A stretch of 64,000 nucleotides of DNA. Origin: Halanaerobium hydrogeniformans (GTDB taxonomy: Bacteria > Bacillota > Halanaerobiia > Halanaerobiales > Halanaerobiaceae). Position numbers and translations under genes: made by a program. Within the stretch, counting starts at the first letter, position 1. Each line of letters begins with the position of its first letter. The notes under the pieces are model-generated. The model searched no databases, was not told the DNA's origin, and was given only the letters and a program-made list of their open reading frames with translations. Where the stretch lies: positions 1,364,001 through 1,428,000 of the forward strand of contig NC_014654.1 of assembly GCF_000166415.1 (NCBI RefSeq), read 5' to 3'. Below are positions 51,017-59,064 of this stretch, one piece after another.

Positions 51017-51670
51017 TTAACTGCCATAATTTTTAATCTGATCAAGACTTTCGTTTTTACCCATAACAACAAGTCTATCTCCTTCAAGAACCTTATCATC
51101 AGCTCCTGGAGAAATATGTAAGTCTTCTCCTCTTTTTATGGCCATAACATTTACATTAAATTTAGATCTTAACTCTAATTCTTTTAAGGTTTTACCGATC
51201 ATTTTATCTGCTGCTATTATTTCGATAACTCCATAATCAGGAGCAAATTCAATATAATCTAACACATTAGAAGAAATAAGGTTATGAGCAATTCTAGCTC
51301 CCATATCTCTTTCTGGATAAACAACCCTGTCTGCCCCTATTTTTGTTAAAACTTTGCCGTGTAACCTATCAGGTGCCTTAACAATTACATAAGGAACCTC
51401 TAATTCTTTTAAAATTAAGGTACATAAAATATTAGCTGAAACATCATCACCTATACTCACCACAGCTACATCAAAATTTCTAGCTCCCAGAGTTTTTAAT
51501 GCATCTTCATCAGTTGCATCTGCTTCTACTGAATGAGTTACCTGATTTGCCAGAGCCTGAACTCTTTCTGCATCTTTATCTATTGCCAGGACATCATAAC
51601 CGTTTTCAGAAAGTGTTGTTGCCACACTTGAGCCAAAACGTCCTAAGCCAATTACTACAAACTGTTTCAT
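51017..51670 (-). CDS. ktrA: Potassium uptake regulatory subunit KtrA/TrkA-like
   Basis: A 217-residue RCK protein. The Rossmann start VIGLGRFGSSVATTL binds nucleotide, with the acidic LAIDKDAERV that prefers NAD/ATP. A C-terminal RCK_C (TrkA_C) domain follows at about 135-217. It gates the membrane subunit encoded 21 bases upstream. Confidence 0.92.
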   Translation of the reverse strand: MKQFVVIGLGRFGSSVATTLSENGYDVLAIDKDAERVQALANQVTHSVEADATDEDALKTLGARNFDVAVVSIGDDVSANILCTLILKELEVPYVIVKAPDRLHGKVLTKIGADRVVYPERDMGARIAHNLISSNVLDYIEFAPDYGVIEIIAADKMIGKTLKELELRSKFNVNVMAIKRGEDLHISPGADDKVLEGDRLVVMGKNESLDQIKNYGS

Positions 51671-51691: not shown

Positions 51692-53014
51692 TTAACCAAC
51701 CATAACTTTTTCTGTTGGATAATGATAAATTCCTTTTCTAACTTTATCTCCAAATGCTACTGCCAGAGTTAAGGGTCCAACCCTACCAGCAAACATGGTA
51801 ATGGTAATTAAAACTCGGCTTATATTTGACAGGCTACCTGTTATACCCGTAGAAAGGCCTACAGTACCAAAAGCAGATACAGTTTCAAATAAAACATCTA
51901 TAAATTGAAAATCTTCAATTATTAATATTAAAGTTGTCATTAATATAACTAGAGCAGCTGCCAGCATTGTGATAGTAAAGGCCTTATAAATTATCTGAGT
52001 TTCAAACCTTCTATTATATACTTCCATATCACTTTTGCCAGAAACCATATTTTTTAAAGTCACTAACATTACACCAAAAGTGGTAGTTTTTATCCCCCCA
52101 CCTGTTGAACCAGGTGAAGCTCCAATGAACATTAGAACAATAATTAAAAACAAAGAAGATTGTCGTAAAGCTCCTGTTGGCAGGGTGTTAAATCCAGCAG
52201 TTCTAGGTGTAACAGATAAAAACATTGCCGAAAGAACTTTATCTAAAAATGGTAAACCTTCCATAGTATTATTGTATTCTAAAGCAAAGAAAACTACAAA
52301 GCCAAAAATAAGTAAAGCTGCAGTCACAACTAGAACAATTTTAGTCTGCAAAGTTGCTTTTTTAAATTTAACCCTATTATAAACTTCTAACATTACTCCA
52401 AAACCTATTCCACCTAGGATAATTAATGCCATTATTACAAAGTTAATAGTGATATCTCCGGTAAAACTTTCTAAACTATTCCCAAATAAATCAAAACCGG
52501 CATTATTAAAGGCAGAAACAGCATGAAATATTGATAAATAAACAGCTCTCAAAAAGTCATGATCCTGGCTTAAACGAAGAAATAAGATAGATGCTCCAAT
52601 ACCTTCGATTGCAAAAGTAAAACCTAATAAATATTGTACCAATCGGACCATTCCTGAAATCTTATACTGGTTAAGGTCTTCCTGAATAATTAGCCTTTCT
52701 TTCAAACTGATCTTTTTGCCGATTATAAAGGCAAACAAGGTGGACATTGACATAATTCCAAGACCACCAATTTGAATCATCATCATTATTACAGTTGAGC
52801 CAAATAAAGTAAAAGTTTCTTTAGTATTAACTACAATTAAACCTGTAACACAGGTTGCAGAGGTAGCAGTAAAAACTGCATCAATAATATTTAAACCCTG
52901 GCCATCAATTGTAGCAATAGGTAACATCAGCATTATTGATCCCAGTAAAATTACAACAAAATAGCCGATAACTAAATATTGAGCTGGACTAAACTTTTTC
53001 TTAGTTAATTTCAT
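51692..53014 (-). CDS. ktrB: Potassium uptake membrane subunit KtrB/TrkH-like
   Basis: A 440-residue transporter with four M1-P-M2 repeats. The selectivity-filter regions are SATCVTGLI, NNAGFDLFGNS, PGSTGGGIKT and GTVGLSTG. With KtrA it forms a K+ (Na+-linked) uptake system, important in saline habitats. The ATG at 53014 has GGGAGAGGA upstream. Confidence 0.92.
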   Translation of the reverse strand: MKLTKKKFSPAQYLVIGYFVVILLGSIMLMLPIATIDGQGLNIIDAVFTATSATCVTGLIVVNTKETFTLFGSTVIMMMIQIGGLGIMSMSTLFAFIIGKKISLKERLIIQEDLNQYKISGMVRLVQYLLGFTFAIEGIGASILFLRLSQDHDFLRAVYLSIFHAVSAFNNAGFDLFGNSLESFTGDITINFVIMALIILGGIGFGVMLEVYNRVKFKKATLQTKIVLVVTAALLIFGFVVFFALEYNNTMEGLPFLDKVLSAMFLSVTPRTAGFNTLPTGALRQSSLFLIIVLMFIGASPGSTGGGIKTTTFGVMLVTLKNMVSGKSDMEVYNRRFETQIIYKAFTITMLAAALVILMTTLILIIEDFQFIDVLFETVSAFGTVGLSTGITGSLSNISRVLITITMFAGRVGPLTLAVAFGDKVRKGIYHYPTEKVMVG

Positions 53015-53075
53015 TGCTTCCTCTCCCATGTTATTATCGAAGTTATTATACTATATATATTAATAAAAGTAAAAT

Positions 53076-53128: not shown

Positions 53129-53293
53129 TTAGCCATCATATGGTTCAAACATATCTTTTCCTACACCACATTCAGGACAAACCCAATCATCAGGTAAATC
53201 TTCAAAAGAGGTTCCTGCTTCAATTCCTCCTACAGGATCTCCTTCTTCAGGATCATAGATATACATACATACTGTACATTGATATTTCTGCAT
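53129..53293 (-). CDS. Rubredoxin
   Basis: A 54-residue protein with the two CxxC iron-binding pairs of rubredoxin ([12 protein letters not shown] and [14 protein letters not shown]), including the conserved aspartate-rich loop GDPVGGI. It carries electrons in the cytoplasm of anaerobes, often in oxygen or peroxide defence. Its ATG has AAAGGAGA upstream. It is a single-gene transcript ending at 53098-53076. Confidence 0.95.
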
Positions 53294-53410: not shown

Positions 53411-55696
53411 TTATTCATCTTCATCAAAGTAAGCATCTAAACTTAAAATGAAAGTCGTACCGCTTTGACTACTTTCTTCGACCCATAAATCTCCATTGTG
53501 AGCAGAAATAATTTCTTTACTGCTTGATAAAGGTAAATCATCACCATTAATATTGTCTTTTGTTATCATCGAAGAGTATTTATTAAAAACCTCTAGTTGT
53601 ATATGTTCTGGAATTCCTCCACCTTGATCTTTAATACTAATAAGAACTTTTTCACCTTCGTTATAGGCATGAATTTTTATAACTCCACCATTTACAGTAT
53701 ATTGAATAGAGTTACTGAGCAGAGAATTTAAAACCCAGAGAATTTTATTGCTATTAACTATTATTTCAGGAAGATTATCATCAAGTTTTTTCTCAATAAT
53801 GATATTTTTATCTTCAGCTGTTTTTGAAACGCTATCAACAGCGAAATTAATTAAATTCTTAACCTCTAAAGTTTCTTTATCAGAAAGAGTAAATAAATTC
53901 TCTTTATCACCTCTGGTAATTTTTTTGTGATAGGCATCCAAGATATCACTTCTGCTAACAACTCCAACTAATTTTTCATCATCATTTGAAAAGACCGGGA
54001 GGGTTTTACTCTTTGTATTACTTATAATTTCTAATGCTTTAATTATACTATCTTCTGTATGAATTTTGTTTGAAGTAGGAAAAACAAGATTCTCAATTTT
54101 TTTACTACCTAGGTCATCAATATTTTCATTTTTTTCAATAAAATTCATTAAATTACGATAACTCATCATACCGATGTAATCACCTGATTTTTGTTTTAAA
54201 ACAGGCACATATGATACAAAAGCACCTTTGAATAACTTTTTAGCATCTGCAACTGTATTAGTATCATAAAGGGTTAAAGGATTAGAGCTCATTATTTCTT
54301 TTACTTTAATATTCTTAATTAAATTAGCTTGATCAATTACACTTAAATCTATTCCTCTATTTAAAAGTTTTGTTGTATAAATATTTTTCTTTTGTACTTT
54401 TCCAGTTGCAACAGAGCTTACTATGCAGGCTAACATCATCGGTAAAAAGATTTTAAAATCTCTTGTCATTTCAAAAAGAATTACAATCGAAGTTAAAGGG
54501 GCATGGGCTGCACCAGCAAATACTGCACCCATTCCAATAATTGCATAAGAACCAGGTCCACCAGTTATATTTGGGAAAAAGGTATTAATAATTCCACCAT
54601 ATGAACTTCCTGCCATGGCTCCTATAAAAAGAGAAGGAGCAAAAATACCACCAGATGCTCCACTACCAAGAGTAAAATCTGTTGCTAATATTTTAGCTAT
54701 CATAAATATTAGGGTCAAATAAAGAGGTAAAGTGCCATTTAATGCCTGCTCCATAATTGGATAACCTGTAGAATGAATTTCAGGAATTCTAAGAGCCAAC
54801 AAAGCAATTAATAAACCACCAAGAGCTGGTTTTAAGTAGGGCGGAAATTTAATTCCTTCAAATAAATGTTCCATTCCATAAAGAGAATTTTGATATATTA
54901 ATGCAACTACAGCTGCAAAAAGGCCTAAACCAATGTAAAAAAAGAATTCCCAATTGCTGACAAAATTGTGGGTAGGTATGTTGAAAATAGCCTGTCTTGG
55001 ACCGAAAAAGAGGTTAGCAACCGCATTACCGGTCAGAGAAGCTATAACAACTGGTGAAAAGTTTTTTAATTTTATATTTTTCATTATTACTTCTAAACTA
55101 AAAATTACTCCTGCTAATGGAGCATTAAATGTTCCGGAAATACCTGCTGCTGCCCCAGATGCAAGTAGTATTTCAATACTATCACCGTCCAGTTTAAAAA
55201 ACTGTCCTAAAGCTGAACCAAAACCAGCGCCAATTTGGACAATCGGTCCTTCACGACCAGCGGAACCTCCTGACCCTATGGTAATCGCTGAAATTAATGC
55301 CTTAAAAGGAGCAACTCTAGCTCTAATTTTACCAGAGTTTAATGCTGCTGCTTCCATAACTTCTGGTACACCATGTCCTTTAGCCTCAGGTACAAAGAAA
55401 TAAATTAATGGTCCAACTATTAAACCACCAATCACTGGAGATAATATTCGATGATACCATGGTAAGCTTCTTATTACAGGAACAAAATTGATTCCAGCAT
55501 CTACCCCAAAAAATATATTTTTAATTATAGAAATCAAATGATGAAAAACAGCTGCTGCCACTCCACCTACAATTCCTACAAGTAATGCTAAAATAATTAA
55601 AGATGATACATCTGAATCTTGAATATATTTACAGATTCTTAGATGAATATTATTATATATGTTTTTAAATCTACTGGAGAAATTATTTGCAGACAT
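53411..55696 (-). CDS. ClC chloride channel-like protein fused to CBS pair and HATPase-type domain
   Basis: A 761-residue protein. Residues 30-435 are a ClC core: GHGVPE (107-112), GREGP with the gating glutamate at 149, and SGGIFAPS. The position of the E. coli proton glutamate (203) is a valine here, which suggests a channel rather than an exchanger. Two CBS domains follow (about 465-522 and 535-592). Residues 610-757 are like a histidine-kinase ATP-binding domain: an N-box (NSNKILWVLNSLLSNSIQYT), G1 DQGGGIP and a C-terminal TTFILSL. The lid motif GxGLGLS has become GDDLPLS, and no phosphoacceptor histidine precedes it. The gene has its own ribosome site (AAAGGAG) and stands alone. Confidence 0.87.
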   Translation of the reverse strand: MSANNFSSRFKNIYNNIHLRICKYIQDSDVSSLIILALLVGIVGGVAAAVFHHLISIIKNIFFGVDAGINFVPVIRSLPWYHRILSPVIGGLIVGPLIYFFVPEAKGHGVPEVMEAAALNSGKIRARVAPFKALISAITIGSGGSAGREGPIVQIGAGFGSALGQFFKLDGDSIEILLASGAAAGISGTFNAPLAGVIFSLEVIMKNIKLKNFSPVVIASLTGNAVANLFFGPRQAIFNIPTHNFVSNWEFFFYIGLGLFAAVVALIYQNSLYGMEHLFEGIKFPPYLKPALGGLLIALLALRIPEIHSTGYPIMEQALNGTLPLYLTLIFMIAKILATDFTLGSGASGGIFAPSLFIGAMAGSSYGGIINTFFPNITGGPGSYAIIGMGAVFAGAAHAPLTSIVILFEMTRDFKIFLPMMLACIVSSVATGKVQKKNIYTTKLLNRGIDLSVIDQANLIKNIKVKEIMSSNPLTLYDTNTVADAKKLFKGAFVSYVPVLKQKSGDYIGMMSYRNLMNFIEKNENIDDLGSKKIENLVFPTSNKIHTEDSIIKALEIISNTKSKTLPVFSNDDEKLVGVVSRSDILDAYHKKITRGDKENLFTLSDKETLEVKNLINFAVDSVSKTAEDKNIIIEKKLDDNLPEIIVNSNKILWVLNSLLSNSIQYTVNGGVIKIHAYNEGEKVLISIKDQGGGIPEHIQLEVFNKYSSMITKDNINGDDLPLSSSKEIISAHNGDLWVEESSQSGTTFILSLDAYFDEDE

Positions 55697-55920
55697 ATAA
55701 TTATACTCCTTTCAGCTGGAAAATAGAATTTTAATAATACAGTTAAATAATAAATAAATTTAGCAGAAATATTTTCTTGACTTCAAGATTAACTGCTAGA
55801 TTATTTTTAATTGATAGATTTTTAAATTATAATTAAATTCTAAAGCAGATATTAGTATATATTATAAATATAAATAATGCAATAAATATCTGATTATTTC
55901 ACAAAAATTTTAAATTTGTT
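55697..55920. other. Gap between ClC gene and IS30 element
   Basis: This is AT-rich sequence without a visible gene. A few bases (CTTGACTTCAAG) form a small palindrome. The ClC promoter must lie here, but I cannot point to it confidently. Confidence 0.5.
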
Positions 55921-57137
55921 TCATTGTAAAATTAAATGCAACAGACAAAAAAATTAGAACCATAGCTAAAAACCTAGTATGATATAAGTGACCAAACAAA
56001 ATCATATGGAGGTTTAAGCTATGGCTCATACTAAAGATAATACCACAACTCAAAGAACTTTTAAACATCTTTCTTCTTATGAAAGAGGTAAAATTGCTGC
56101 TCTTCTGCAAGAAGGATACTCTCAAAGAAAGATTGCTGAAAAGCTAGGCAGAAATCACAGCACTATTAATCGTGAAATTAAAAGAGGTACTACAACTCAA
56201 CTTAACTATGATCTGTCTACTTATGAACAGTATTTCCCTGAAACTGGTCAAGCTGTCTTTGAGAAAAATCGTTCTCACTGCGGTAATAAATCTAAATTGC
56301 TTAAAGTGGAATCTTTTCTACAACATGCTGAAAAAATGATCTTGAAAAATGATTGGTCTCCAGATGTTGTTGTTGGACACGCTCTAAAAAATAATGAATT
56401 TACTAAAGATGAAATGGTATCCACTAAAACTCTCTATAATTATATAGATCAAAATTTATTAGATGTTAAAAATATTGATCTTCAACTTAAAGTTCGCAGA
56501 AAACAAAGAGATCCTAATAAAAGAAAGCATAAAAGACTTCAGGGTAAAAGTATTGAAGAAAGACCAGAAACAGTTGATGATCGAAAAGAATTCGGCCACT
56601 GGGAAATTGATACCGTCAGAGGTACTAGAACTAAAGATAATGTCCTTTTAACTATTACTGAAAGATCCACTCGTCAGCATTTAATTAGACTCTTAGAAGA
56701 TAAGAGCTCTGCTGCTGTAGATCAAGCAATTAAGAAACTTAAAGTTCAATTTTCTAATGTTTTTAAAAAGGTATTTAAAACCATTACAGCTGATAATGGA
56801 ACTGAATTTGCTAATTTATATAATCATGATGTTGATGTTTACTATGCTCATCCTTATTCAGCCTGGGAAAGAGGCACTAATGAAAGACATAATGGTCTCA
56901 TTAGAAGATTCATTCCTAAAGGAGAACAAATAAGCAACTATACAGAAAAACAGATTCGGAGAATACAAAATTGGTGTAATAATTATCCAAGAAAATTATT
57001 GGATTATTCTACTCCAAATGAATTATTCCAAAAAGAACTTCAAGCTATTATTAACCCTGTTTAAACAATTTAAAATTCAAAATACTATATTATACTAGTC
57101 TTTTCTATAGGTGTTGCATTTAATATTGCAATTTAAG
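55921..57137 (+). mobile_element. IS30-family insertion sequence
   Basis: Related inverted ends share ATTAAATGCAACA (left at 55931-55943; right, reversed, at 57112-57124), with weaker similarity outside. An AATTTTAAATTT stretch occurs on both flanks and may be a duplication, though it is itself near-palindromic. The element lies just 16 bases after the end of the topoisomerase B gene. Confidence 0.8.
56021..57064 (+). CDS. IS30-family transposase
   Basis: A 347-residue transposase with an N-terminal IS30 HTH (LSSYERGKIAALLQEGYSQ, NHSTINREIKRG). The catalytic core has D in HWEIDTVRG, D in TADNGTEF and E in WERGTNERHNGLIRRFIPK. It is full length and in one frame, so it is likely active. ATGGAGGTTT precedes its ATG. 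Confidence 0.93.
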   Translation: MAHTKDNTTTQRTFKHLSSYERGKIAALLQEGYSQRKIAEKLGRNHSTINREIKRGTTTQLNYDLSTYEQYFPETGQAVFEKNRSHCGNKSKLLKVESFLQHAEKMILKNDWSPDVVVGHALKNNEFTKDEMVSTKTLYNYIDQNLLDVKNIDLQLKVRRKQRDPNKRKHKRLQGKSIEERPETVDDRKEFGHWEIDTVRGTRTKDNVLLTITERSTRQHLIRLLEDKSSAAVDQAIKKLKVQFSNVFKKVFKTITADNGTEFANLYNHDVDVYYAHPYSAWERGTNERHNGLIRRFIPKGEQISNYTEKQIRRIQNWCNNYPRKLLDYSTPNELFQKELQAIINPV

Positions 57138-57153
57138 AAAATTTTAAATTTTA

Positions 57154-59064
57154 TTAAAAATCTATAGTTTGGACTAATTCTGCATTATTAAAAATAAATT
57201 CTTTGCGTAAAGAAGCATTAGAACCCATTAAACGGGTAAATATATCATCAGCTTCAAAATCATCGTCAATTTCTACTCGTAATAAAACCCTGTTTTCTGG
57301 ATCCATAGTTGTATCCCACAGCTGACGAGGATTCATTTCTCCCAATCCTTTGTAGCGCTGCAGTGAAAAATTTTCATGTTTTTTCTTATATTCTGCTAAT
57401 TCTTGATCACTGTATAAATACTTTGTAGATTTTCCTCTACTAACTTTGTAAAGGGGTGGTTTAGCAAGATAAATATAGCCTTCCTCTATTAACTCCGGCA
57501 TATATCTATAAAAAAGAGTTAAAATTAAAGTAGCAATATGAGCACCATCTACATCAGCATCGGTCATAATAATAATTTTATGATAGCGTAAATTTTTAAT
57601 ATTAAAATCTTCTCCAATACCTGCTCCTAAAGCAGTGATTATTGAAGCAATTTCAGTATTATTTAATATCTTATCAAGCCTTGCCCTTTCAACATTTAAA
57701 ATTTTACCTTTAAGTGGCAGAATGGCCTGAAAATTACGGTCTCTACCCTGTTTTGCAGAACCACCAGCAGAATCTCCCTCAACTATAAAGAGTTCGCTCT
57801 TTTCTGCTTTTTTGCTGCTGCAATCCGCTAATTTACCCGGCAGAGCATTTGAATTCAAAGCACTCTTTCTTTTAGTAAGTTCTCTAGCTTTTTTTGATGC
57901 TTTACGAGCTCTAACAGCCTGTACAGCTTTATCAATAACTTTATTTGCTAGATCAGGATTGGTGTCAAAATAAAGGCTTAGATATTCATATACTTCACTT
58001 TCTACTATACTTCTAAGTTCACTATTACCAAGTTTGGTTTTGGTTTGACCCTCAAATTGAGGTTCTGGTAATTTTACATTGATAATAGCAGTAATACCCT
58101 CTCTAACATCTTTACCTCTTAAAGAAGAAATTTTTGCCGGTAAGCGATTATTATTTTTTGCAAAGTTATTAATTGCTCTTGTGAGAGCTGTTTTAAAACC
58201 TGTTAAATGATAGCCACCATCTATTGTGTTAATATTATTTGCATAAGAATAAATTCTCTCATTATAACCATCGTTGTATTGTATGGCCATTTCTACTTCA
58301 TAATCTTCTGGCTTAGATTCAAAATAAATTATATCTTCATTAATAACGTTTCTATCTTTATTTAAGAATTCAACAAAGGCTTTAATGCCACCATCATATT
58401 GGAAGACTTTTTTCTTTTCGCCTTCTCCTCTTTCATCAATTAAAATTAAAGTTAAATCTTTATTTAAATAAGCAGATTCCTGTAATCTATGGGCAAGATT
58501 CTCAAACTTATAATCTCTTGCCGCAAAAATATCACTATCGGCTTTAAATCTTATCACTGTACCACTACGCTTAGTTTTGCCCAGTTTTTCAAGCTTGGAA
58601 GTTGGAACTCCTTTTTTAAAAACCTGTCTATATTTATTGCCTTCCCAGTGAGTGGTTAAAACAAGTTTTTCTGAAAGTGCATTTACAACTGAAACACCTA
58701 CTCCATGTAAACCACCAGAAACTTTATAACTGTTATTATTAAATTTACCTCCTGCATGTAAGGTGGTTAAAACAACCTGAACTGCAGGTAGACCACTGTC
58801 TTTATGGATATCTGCTGGAATACCTCTCCCATAATCCTCAACAGTTATCTCATTATTCTCATGAATTGTTACTTTGATTTCATCTCCATAACCTGCTAAA
58901 AACTCATCTATACTATTATCAACTACCTCCCACACAAGGTGGTGTAGACCTTTGATTCCTGTACTCCCTATATACATACCAGGCCTTTTTCTAACTGCTT
59001 CTAGACCCTTTAATACCTGTATTTGATCAGCATTATAATCTGTTTTATCAAAAAGTGTTTCCAT
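57154..59064 (-). CDS. parE: Type IIA topoisomerase subunit B (ParE/GyrB-like)
   Basis: A 636-residue GHKL-type ATPase subunit: VDNSIDEFLAGYGD, DYGRGIP, GGLHGVGVSVVNA, the TOPRIM EGDSAGGSAKQGRDR and DADVDGAHI. The length is that of short GyrB/ParE proteins without the E. coli GyrB insert. It is divergent from the A subunit. The head-to-head layout, instead of gyrB-gyrA in tandem near dnaA, favours a second enzyme (topoisomerase IV) but does not prove it. Confidence 0.85.
   Translation of the reverse strand: METLFDKTDYNADQIQVLKGLEAVRKRPGMYIGSTGIKGLHHLVWEVVDNSIDEFLAGYGDEIKVTIHENNEITVEDYGRGIPADIHKDSGLPAVQVVLTTLHAGGKFNNNSYKVSGGLHGVGVSVVNALSEKLVLTTHWEGNKYRQVFKKGVPTSKLEKLGKTKRSGTVIRFKADSDIFAARDYKFENLAHRLQESAYLNKDLTLILIDERGEGEKKKVFQYDGGIKAFVEFLNKDRNVINEDIIYFESKPEDYEVEMAIQYNDGYNERIYSYANNINTIDGGYHLTGFKTALTRAINNFAKNNNRLPAKISSLRGKDVREGITAIINVKLPEPQFEGQTKTKLGNSELRSIVESEVYEYLSLYFDTNPDLANKVIDKAVQAVRARKASKKARELTKRKSALNSNALPGKLADCSSKKAEKSELFIVEGDSAGGSAKQGRDRNFQAILPLKGKILNVERARLDKILNNTEIASIITALGAGIGEDFNIKNLRYHKIIIMTDADVDGAHIATLILTLFYRYMPELIEEGYIYLAKPPLYKVSRGKSTKYLYSDQELAEYKKKHENFSLQRYKGLGEMNPRQLWDTTMDPENRVLLRVEIDDDFEADDIFTRLMGSNASLRKEFIFNNAELVQTIDF

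Follow-up and report, generated by a model that had tools for sequence, protein, structure and literature searches.

Prokaryotic members of the ClC family serve as structural models for the human chloride channels. To our knowledge, their gating by cytosolic domains is little understood. The nearest described systems in layout are ClCs with a C-terminal CBS pair, including the ClcB-like proteins of NCBIfam PRK01862. EriC of Streptococcus agalactiae has a cytosolic ligand-type domain, RCK_C/TrkA_C, appended to its ClC (PMC5919688). Other transporters are fused to histidine kinases. These include CbrA/CrbS, with an SLC5 transporter, and Ks-Amt5, with an ammonium transporter (Amt) (PMC7096432, PMC5764959). 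Their kinase parts can pass a signal on to a response regulator. In the pseudokinase DivL the CA fold is retained and kinase function is lost (PMC4211667).

We analysed a window of 64,000 nucleotides from the haloalkaliphile Halanaerobium hydrogeniformans, of Soap Lake (PMC4237134). The window holds a gene that joins a ClC pore and a CBS pair to a histidine-kinase CA (GHKL) domain (Table 1). The protein shares its pore, external gating glutamate (Glu_ex), valine or isoleucine at the internal proton-glutamate position (Glu_in) and CBS pair with PRK01862 proteins and with ClCs of two genomes of the same class, G023 and G024. Unlike the fusion, these end after the second CBS domain (CBS2; ~580–600 amino acids) and have no CA domain. 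Like EriC, the fusion has a cytosolic domain appended to a ClC, but this is GHKL rather than RCK_C/TrkA_C. Like CbrA/CrbS and Ks-Amt5, it combines a membrane transporter with histidine-kinase parts. However, it has the CA domain only, on a ClC and after CBS domains. Transceptors pair a transporter with a complete DHp-CA kinase; here, DHp is absent. As in DivL, a CA fold is kept and kinase function lost. Unlike the fusion, DivL has a DHp domain (tyrosine for histidine), PAS domains and no transporter. The closest CA domains, at 33–39% identity, are those of L003-type kinases of the same class. In contrast to the fusion these are complete kinases, and L003 has response regulator genes downstream. 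Compared with sensor histidine kinases, the fusion is without a DHp/HisKA phosphoacceptor and no response regulator was seen nearby (only the unfused G023 gene has one). Because HisKA/DHp is absent, we class the fusion as a CBS-regulated ClC variant, and not as a histidine kinase or transceptor kinase. No ClC-GHKL fusion (ClC-CBS-CBS-CA without DHp) was found in the open-licence literature.

An earlier note on this DNA had placed one continuous 761-codon frame at 53411–55696. This was correct, and the strand is minus. The start codon is at 55696, the stop codon at 53411–53413 and there are no internal stops. The genome is one contig of 2,613,117 bases. Pfam bore out the proposed ClC pore and two CBS domains (Voltage_CLC, CBS x2). 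Both ClC family features, the Voltage_CLC domain and Glu_ex, are present, and the tandem CBS pair follows the pore. The membrane part (residues ~33–450) is wider than the Pfam span. At the position of EcClC S107 the alignment has histidine. The note had also proposed a HATPase_c-like C-terminal domain with no phosphoacceptor histidine. Profile search of the tail confirmed the former with a significant match (residues 651–754, E 1.6e-16; score 61 bits, cut-off 26). Consistent with the latter, there was no Pfam match to HisKA at E <= 1. The H. polyolivorans ortholog is collinear over residues 8–761 with 85% identity.

Table 1. Features of the fused ClC gene, its neighbours and the short ClCs of other Halanaerobium genomes. 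Coordinates are window positions except where a locus is named.
Feature	Position	Strand	Basis or remark
ClC-CBS-CBS-CA fusion gene, 761 aa (protein P0001)	53411..55696	-	ORF; collinear H. polyolivorans ortholog
Voltage_CLC pore domain, residues 90-430 (Pfam span)	54407..55429	-	E 9.3e-104; ClcA structures E 1e-47 to 1e-41
Glu_ex E149, GREGP	55250..55252	-	alignment with EcClC and relatives
Glu_in position, V203	55088..55090	-	alignment with EcClC; unfused relatives compared also non-Glu
CBS pair, residues ~451-595	53912..54346	-	two Pfam CBS matches, E 6.5e-19
Linker and CA (GHKL) domain, residues 597-761	53414..53908	-	HATPase_c match, PDB relatives, structure model
N-box region W654-Y666 (WVLNSLLSNSIQY)	53699..53737	-	first Asn is Ser658, second is N662
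G1 box DQGGGI, residues 690-695	53612..53629	-	motif alignment
Degenerate lid motif GDDLPL, residues 718-723	53528..53545	-	kinases have GxGLGL, which other fused proteins largely retain
Rubredoxin-like gene, 54 aa, between ClC gene and trkH	53129..53293	-	alignment reading; strongly conserved
trkH, K+ uptake membrane subunit	51692..53029	-	conserved gene order
trkA, K+ uptake regulatory subunit	51017..51670	-	conserved gene order
GRIGP short ClC at gyrB slot	L130 4341-5609, L131 7237-8505, L133 4523-5791		other Halanaerobium genomes

The tail also resembles kinase CA domains in structure. A phmmer search of the PDB with the last 171 residues identified the WalK/YycG CA domain (3sl2, E 2.8e-16). 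The structure model of the linker and CA domain, built from six sequences, has a Bergerat fold (mean pLDDT 79), as expected for GHKL. Foldseek matched this model to 350 PDB chains at E <= 0.001 (best E 7e-14). The best 50 of the 350 were all histidine-kinase or kinase-like chains. VIA-align against kinase CA domains gave Z of ~17–19; the top value, 19.4, was for DivL, tied with active kinases. Confidence was lowest (pLDDT < 50) at residues 706–716, the lid loop adjoining GDDLPL. The full-length AlphaFold model of the fusion protein, built from two sequences only, had a pLDDT of 33, too low to be of use.

Homologues with the same C-terminal domain were found in seven further genomes of the class. 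The two observations that the earlier note had named as refuting, a model lacking the GHKL fold and a lack of homologues with this domain, are thus both contradicted. Hence, 8 of 59 class genomes, spanning four families, have the fusion. Within Halanaerobium the count is 2 of 12. Relatives in the order are G012 (H. polyolivorans, 85% identity), G009 (65%), G030 (58%) and G026 (52%), with G029 and G027 cut by contig ends. G344 (45%) is outside the order but within the class. Pfam detected ClC, CBS and HATPase_c in these relatives (the G027 fragment is without the pore part) and no HisKA in the six scanned. The same fusion was not found among ~590 sampled Bacillota and Bacteroidota genomes. ClC matches stopped at or shortly past CBS2 in 299 genomes drawn from the same phylum (Bacillota), in 296 from the Bacteroidota, to which the MAG L010 belongs, and in 72,556 plasmids. 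Four of the longer frames from these samples (L084–L087) were inspected and none looked GHKL-like in the tail. All of these are samples, and the fusion may occur more widely. Viral contigs scanned with the pore and CBS part contained no relative. In two Bacillota ClCs (L084 640–2979, L085 483–2576) the extension after the CBS domains reads like TrkA_C/RCK_C.

In a CA-domain tree, the fused copies stand apart from every kinase sampled (UFBoot 100, FastTree 0.975). The nearest kinases are of the L003 type (4HB-HAMP-PAS-HisKA-HATPase_c). In a tree of pore and CBS parts the fused proteins are a clade (UFBoot 78, FastTree 0.94), and form a joint clade with the unfused G023 and G024 proteins (UFBoot 100, FastTree 1.000). 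The branching order ((G026,G344),(G030,(G009,(G000,G012)))) is identical in the pore and CA trees. This indicates one fusion event. On the plain reading, pore and CA domain fused a single time and have been inherited together ever since, and the patchy distribution stems from loss or horizontal transfer. The fusion point is the DHp-CA border of a kinase, so that the phosphoacceptor helices are left out. We conclude that the fusion is neither chance nor assembly error, and that it is inherited and conserved.

Upstream of the fused ClC in G030, at a distance of 47 bp, is an ORF (L055 1–552) for a membrane sensor that resembles a four-helix bundle and lacks an output domain. The contig edge cuts off the start of this ORF. 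The profile score was 30 bits, versus <= 7 for shuffles. The idea that a ClC gene had inserted into an L003-type kinase was dropped, as other four-helix-bundle proteins of related genomes are matched to a similar degree, leaving no specific link.

We compared ATP-site motifs between fused copies. From the full set (NxxxN, G1, F, GxGLGL), the H. hydrogeniformans domain keeps G1, as read in the earlier note, and F (EVFNKY). N is half kept and G2 is lost. The N-box claimed in the note stands for its second asparagine (VLNSLLSN, N662), but serine replaces the first. The two N-box positions are also S/N in G012; they are T/N in G009, H/N in G344 and N/N in G030, G026 and G029. G1 (DxGxGI) is retained in all fused copies. 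The G2 motif GDDLPL is GEDLPL in G012, GKGLAL in G009, VGGLGL in G030, DSGLGL in G026, G029 and G027, and KSGLGL in G344. The damaged lid is thus correctly described for this copy but is not a family trait, and that generalisation was rejected. Judged by these motifs, lid damage is confined to H. hydrogeniformans and H. polyolivorans, and other fused copies keep most of the ATP site.

The eroded CA domain of these two species is still under purifying selection. Between them, dN/dS (NG86) is ~0.17 for the linker and CA domain (0.115/0.661), ~0.11 for the CBS part (0.108/0.949) and ~0.09 for the pore (0.068/0.770). These values are for the two Halanaerobium species only, because synonymous sites are saturated in more distant pairs. 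The CA part changes more quickly than the pore does, and the two copies sit on a long branch (0.66 substitutions per site). The C-terminal strands and SKEI(I/V) helix of the domain are conserved.

The gene order gyrA<>gyrB-clc-(rubredoxin)-trkH-trkA-miaB-mutS is common to H. hydrogeniformans, H. polyolivorans and other Halanaerobium genomes. Halanaerobium is a salt-in genus with trkAH throughout (PMC13340142), and H. polyolivorans obligately requires chloride (PMC10536098). The salt-related setting suggested in the earlier note therefore holds: the ClC slot adjoins trkHA in salt-in halophiles. We rejected a riboswitch leader before trkH, as the conserved stretch is the rubredoxin gene. A ClC-trkHA operon was also dropped. 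The intervening rubredoxin gene has its own 12/12 sigma-70-type promoter match and terminator-like hairpin. Hence, separate transcription units are suggested and the link to K+ uptake is one of neighbourhood only.

No conserved neighbouring partner gene was found across the fused loci. Similarly, no kinase, DHp, HPt, receiver or response regulator gene was seen beside the fused genes. A TrkA_N protein is encoded next to the fused gene of G026. In G023, the unfused ClC-CBS-CBS gene follows a response regulator and a complete histidine kinase after 27 bp, all three pointing the same way (L059 4678–9006). This is a separate hint of a tie between ClCs of this group and two-component systems. In H. 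hydrogeniformans, an IS30-type element (55897–57158; transposase 56021–57064, +) lies between gyrB and the ClC gene, ~200 bp upstream of the start codon. The element has 47-nt imperfect inverted repeats (77% complementary) and is absent in H. polyolivorans, where the gap is 267 bp. A second copy is present at 65.8 kb in the H. hydrogeniformans genome (91% identity). The insertion may have changed ClC expression.

Elsewhere in the genus the clc slot has other contents. In G015, G011 and G017 it is filled by a short ClC of 422 aa with no CBS or CA domain. The short ClC is also present in G013 and G010, but trkHA is absent there, which further limits the link to K+ uptake. Aligned sequences from G015, G011 and G013 read GRIGP, with isoleucine at the Glu_ex position. 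In EcClC, removal of this glutamate (E148A) abolishes H+ coupling and acid activation (PMC3519907). The GRIGP motif suggests that the short ClC is permanently ungated or uncoupled. H. hydrogeniformans and H. polyolivorans are both of soda-lake origin (PMC4237134, PMC10536098). In these sister species, an apparently ungated minimal ClC has been replaced by a GREGP ClC with a CBS pair and CA domain.

The earlier note took the valine at Glu_in as pointing to channel activity. A titratable Glu_in is a feature of the Cl-/H+ exchanger subtype and is absent from the fusion protein. However, the unfused relatives in the comparison also have valine or isoleucine there, and some antiporters are known to lack a titratable Glu_in (PMC3519907). 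Hence, the valine does not decide between channel and exchanger. It is typical of the subfamily and is weak evidence for a channel.

Our preferred interpretation, to which we assign a probability of about 0.5, is a regulated chloride pathway whose CA domain is a nucleotide sensor (ancestrally) or a partner-binding module (in H. hydrogeniformans). The protein would be a dimeric ClC with an enlarged cytosolic regulatory part, made of the CBS pair and one CA domain. The latter would have been taken once from a kinase of the same class with the layout HAMP-PAS-HisKA-HATPase, leaving the DHp/phosphoacceptor helices behind. In the salt-in cell, Cl- would accompany K+ uptake via the fused ClC. The CA domains would hang from the CBS pairs, and ligand binding or release would alter the gate. 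For most relatives the ligand is most likely Mg-ATP/ADP, because the second N-box asparagine, G1, F and most of G2 are kept. Energy state would then be read with no phosphotransfer involved. The two Halanaerobium species have lost both the lid and the first N-box asparagine. Hence, the domain there probably has little or no affinity for nucleotide and serves as a fixed structural or partner-binding regulator. The nucleotide sensor envisaged in the earlier note fits the relatives with ATP-site motifs better than the H. hydrogeniformans copy, where lid damage argues against ATP sensing. Two further points weigh against the preferred reading: the CBS domains alone could account for nucleotide sensing, as in other ClCs, and the CA part changes more quickly than the pore. 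A more specific proposal is tentative. It is that the CA domain gates a class of ClCs as an ATP/ADP sensor without phosphotransfer. In the two soda-lake Halanaerobium species, such a ClC would have replaced an ungated one (no Glu_ex) at a conserved locus, and its CA domain would later have become a nucleotide-independent or partner-sensing pseudokinase gate.

Alternatively, the CA domain could have no role in nucleotide sensing and instead dock onto another protein (TrkA, a regulator or a sensor kinase's DHp), coupling the ClC gate to that partner. DivL is a precedent for a kinase part turned input sensor (PMC4211667) and heads the VIA Z rows, though tied with active kinases. Purifying selection on two Halanaerobium copies with a degenerate site is also consistent with docking. 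We nevertheless consider this rather unlikely, given that relatives retain most ATP-site motifs and no partner gene is conserved beside the fused loci. The eroded lid and N-box, the long branch and the CA-less sister ClCs of G023 and G024 would suit a tail acquired by chance, tolerated and now decaying, with only the pore and CBS domains of consequence. Retention of the domain in four families with an intact frame, its conserved strands and helix, and dN/dS of only ~0.17 in the most eroded pair (0.09 for pore, 0.11 for CBS) make this distinctly unlikely.

Transporter-kinase fusions are known (PMC7096432, PMC5764959), and ATP motifs are kept in relatives. The CA domain might phosphorylate a free-standing DHp or HPt, which would make the ClC a transceptor of the CbrA or Ks-Amt5 kind. 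This is very improbable: DHp, HPt and receiver genes were not seen beside any fused gene, HisKA is absent from all fused proteins scanned and the lid is broken in two species. We give almost no credence to frameshift read-through or an assembly chimera, and rejected chance similarity. Eight genomes encode collinear proteins at 45–85% identity, with significant HMM and fold matches.

Compared with these alternatives, a regulated chloride pathway remains our preferred reading. The class contains a natural comparison set: near-intact CA domains (G026, G344), broken CA domains (H. hydrogeniformans, H. polyolivorans) and ClCs with no CA domain (G023, G024). Sister species extend the comparison with short ClCs that fill the clc slot and have no CBS, CA or Glu_ex. 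Hence, coupling between the CA domain and ClC is directly testable. The architecture suggests a new way of gating chloride flow. If true, a ClC would be regulated via the catalytic domain of a two-component kinase, without any phosphorelay and in organisms that rely on ion uptake to balance molar salt.
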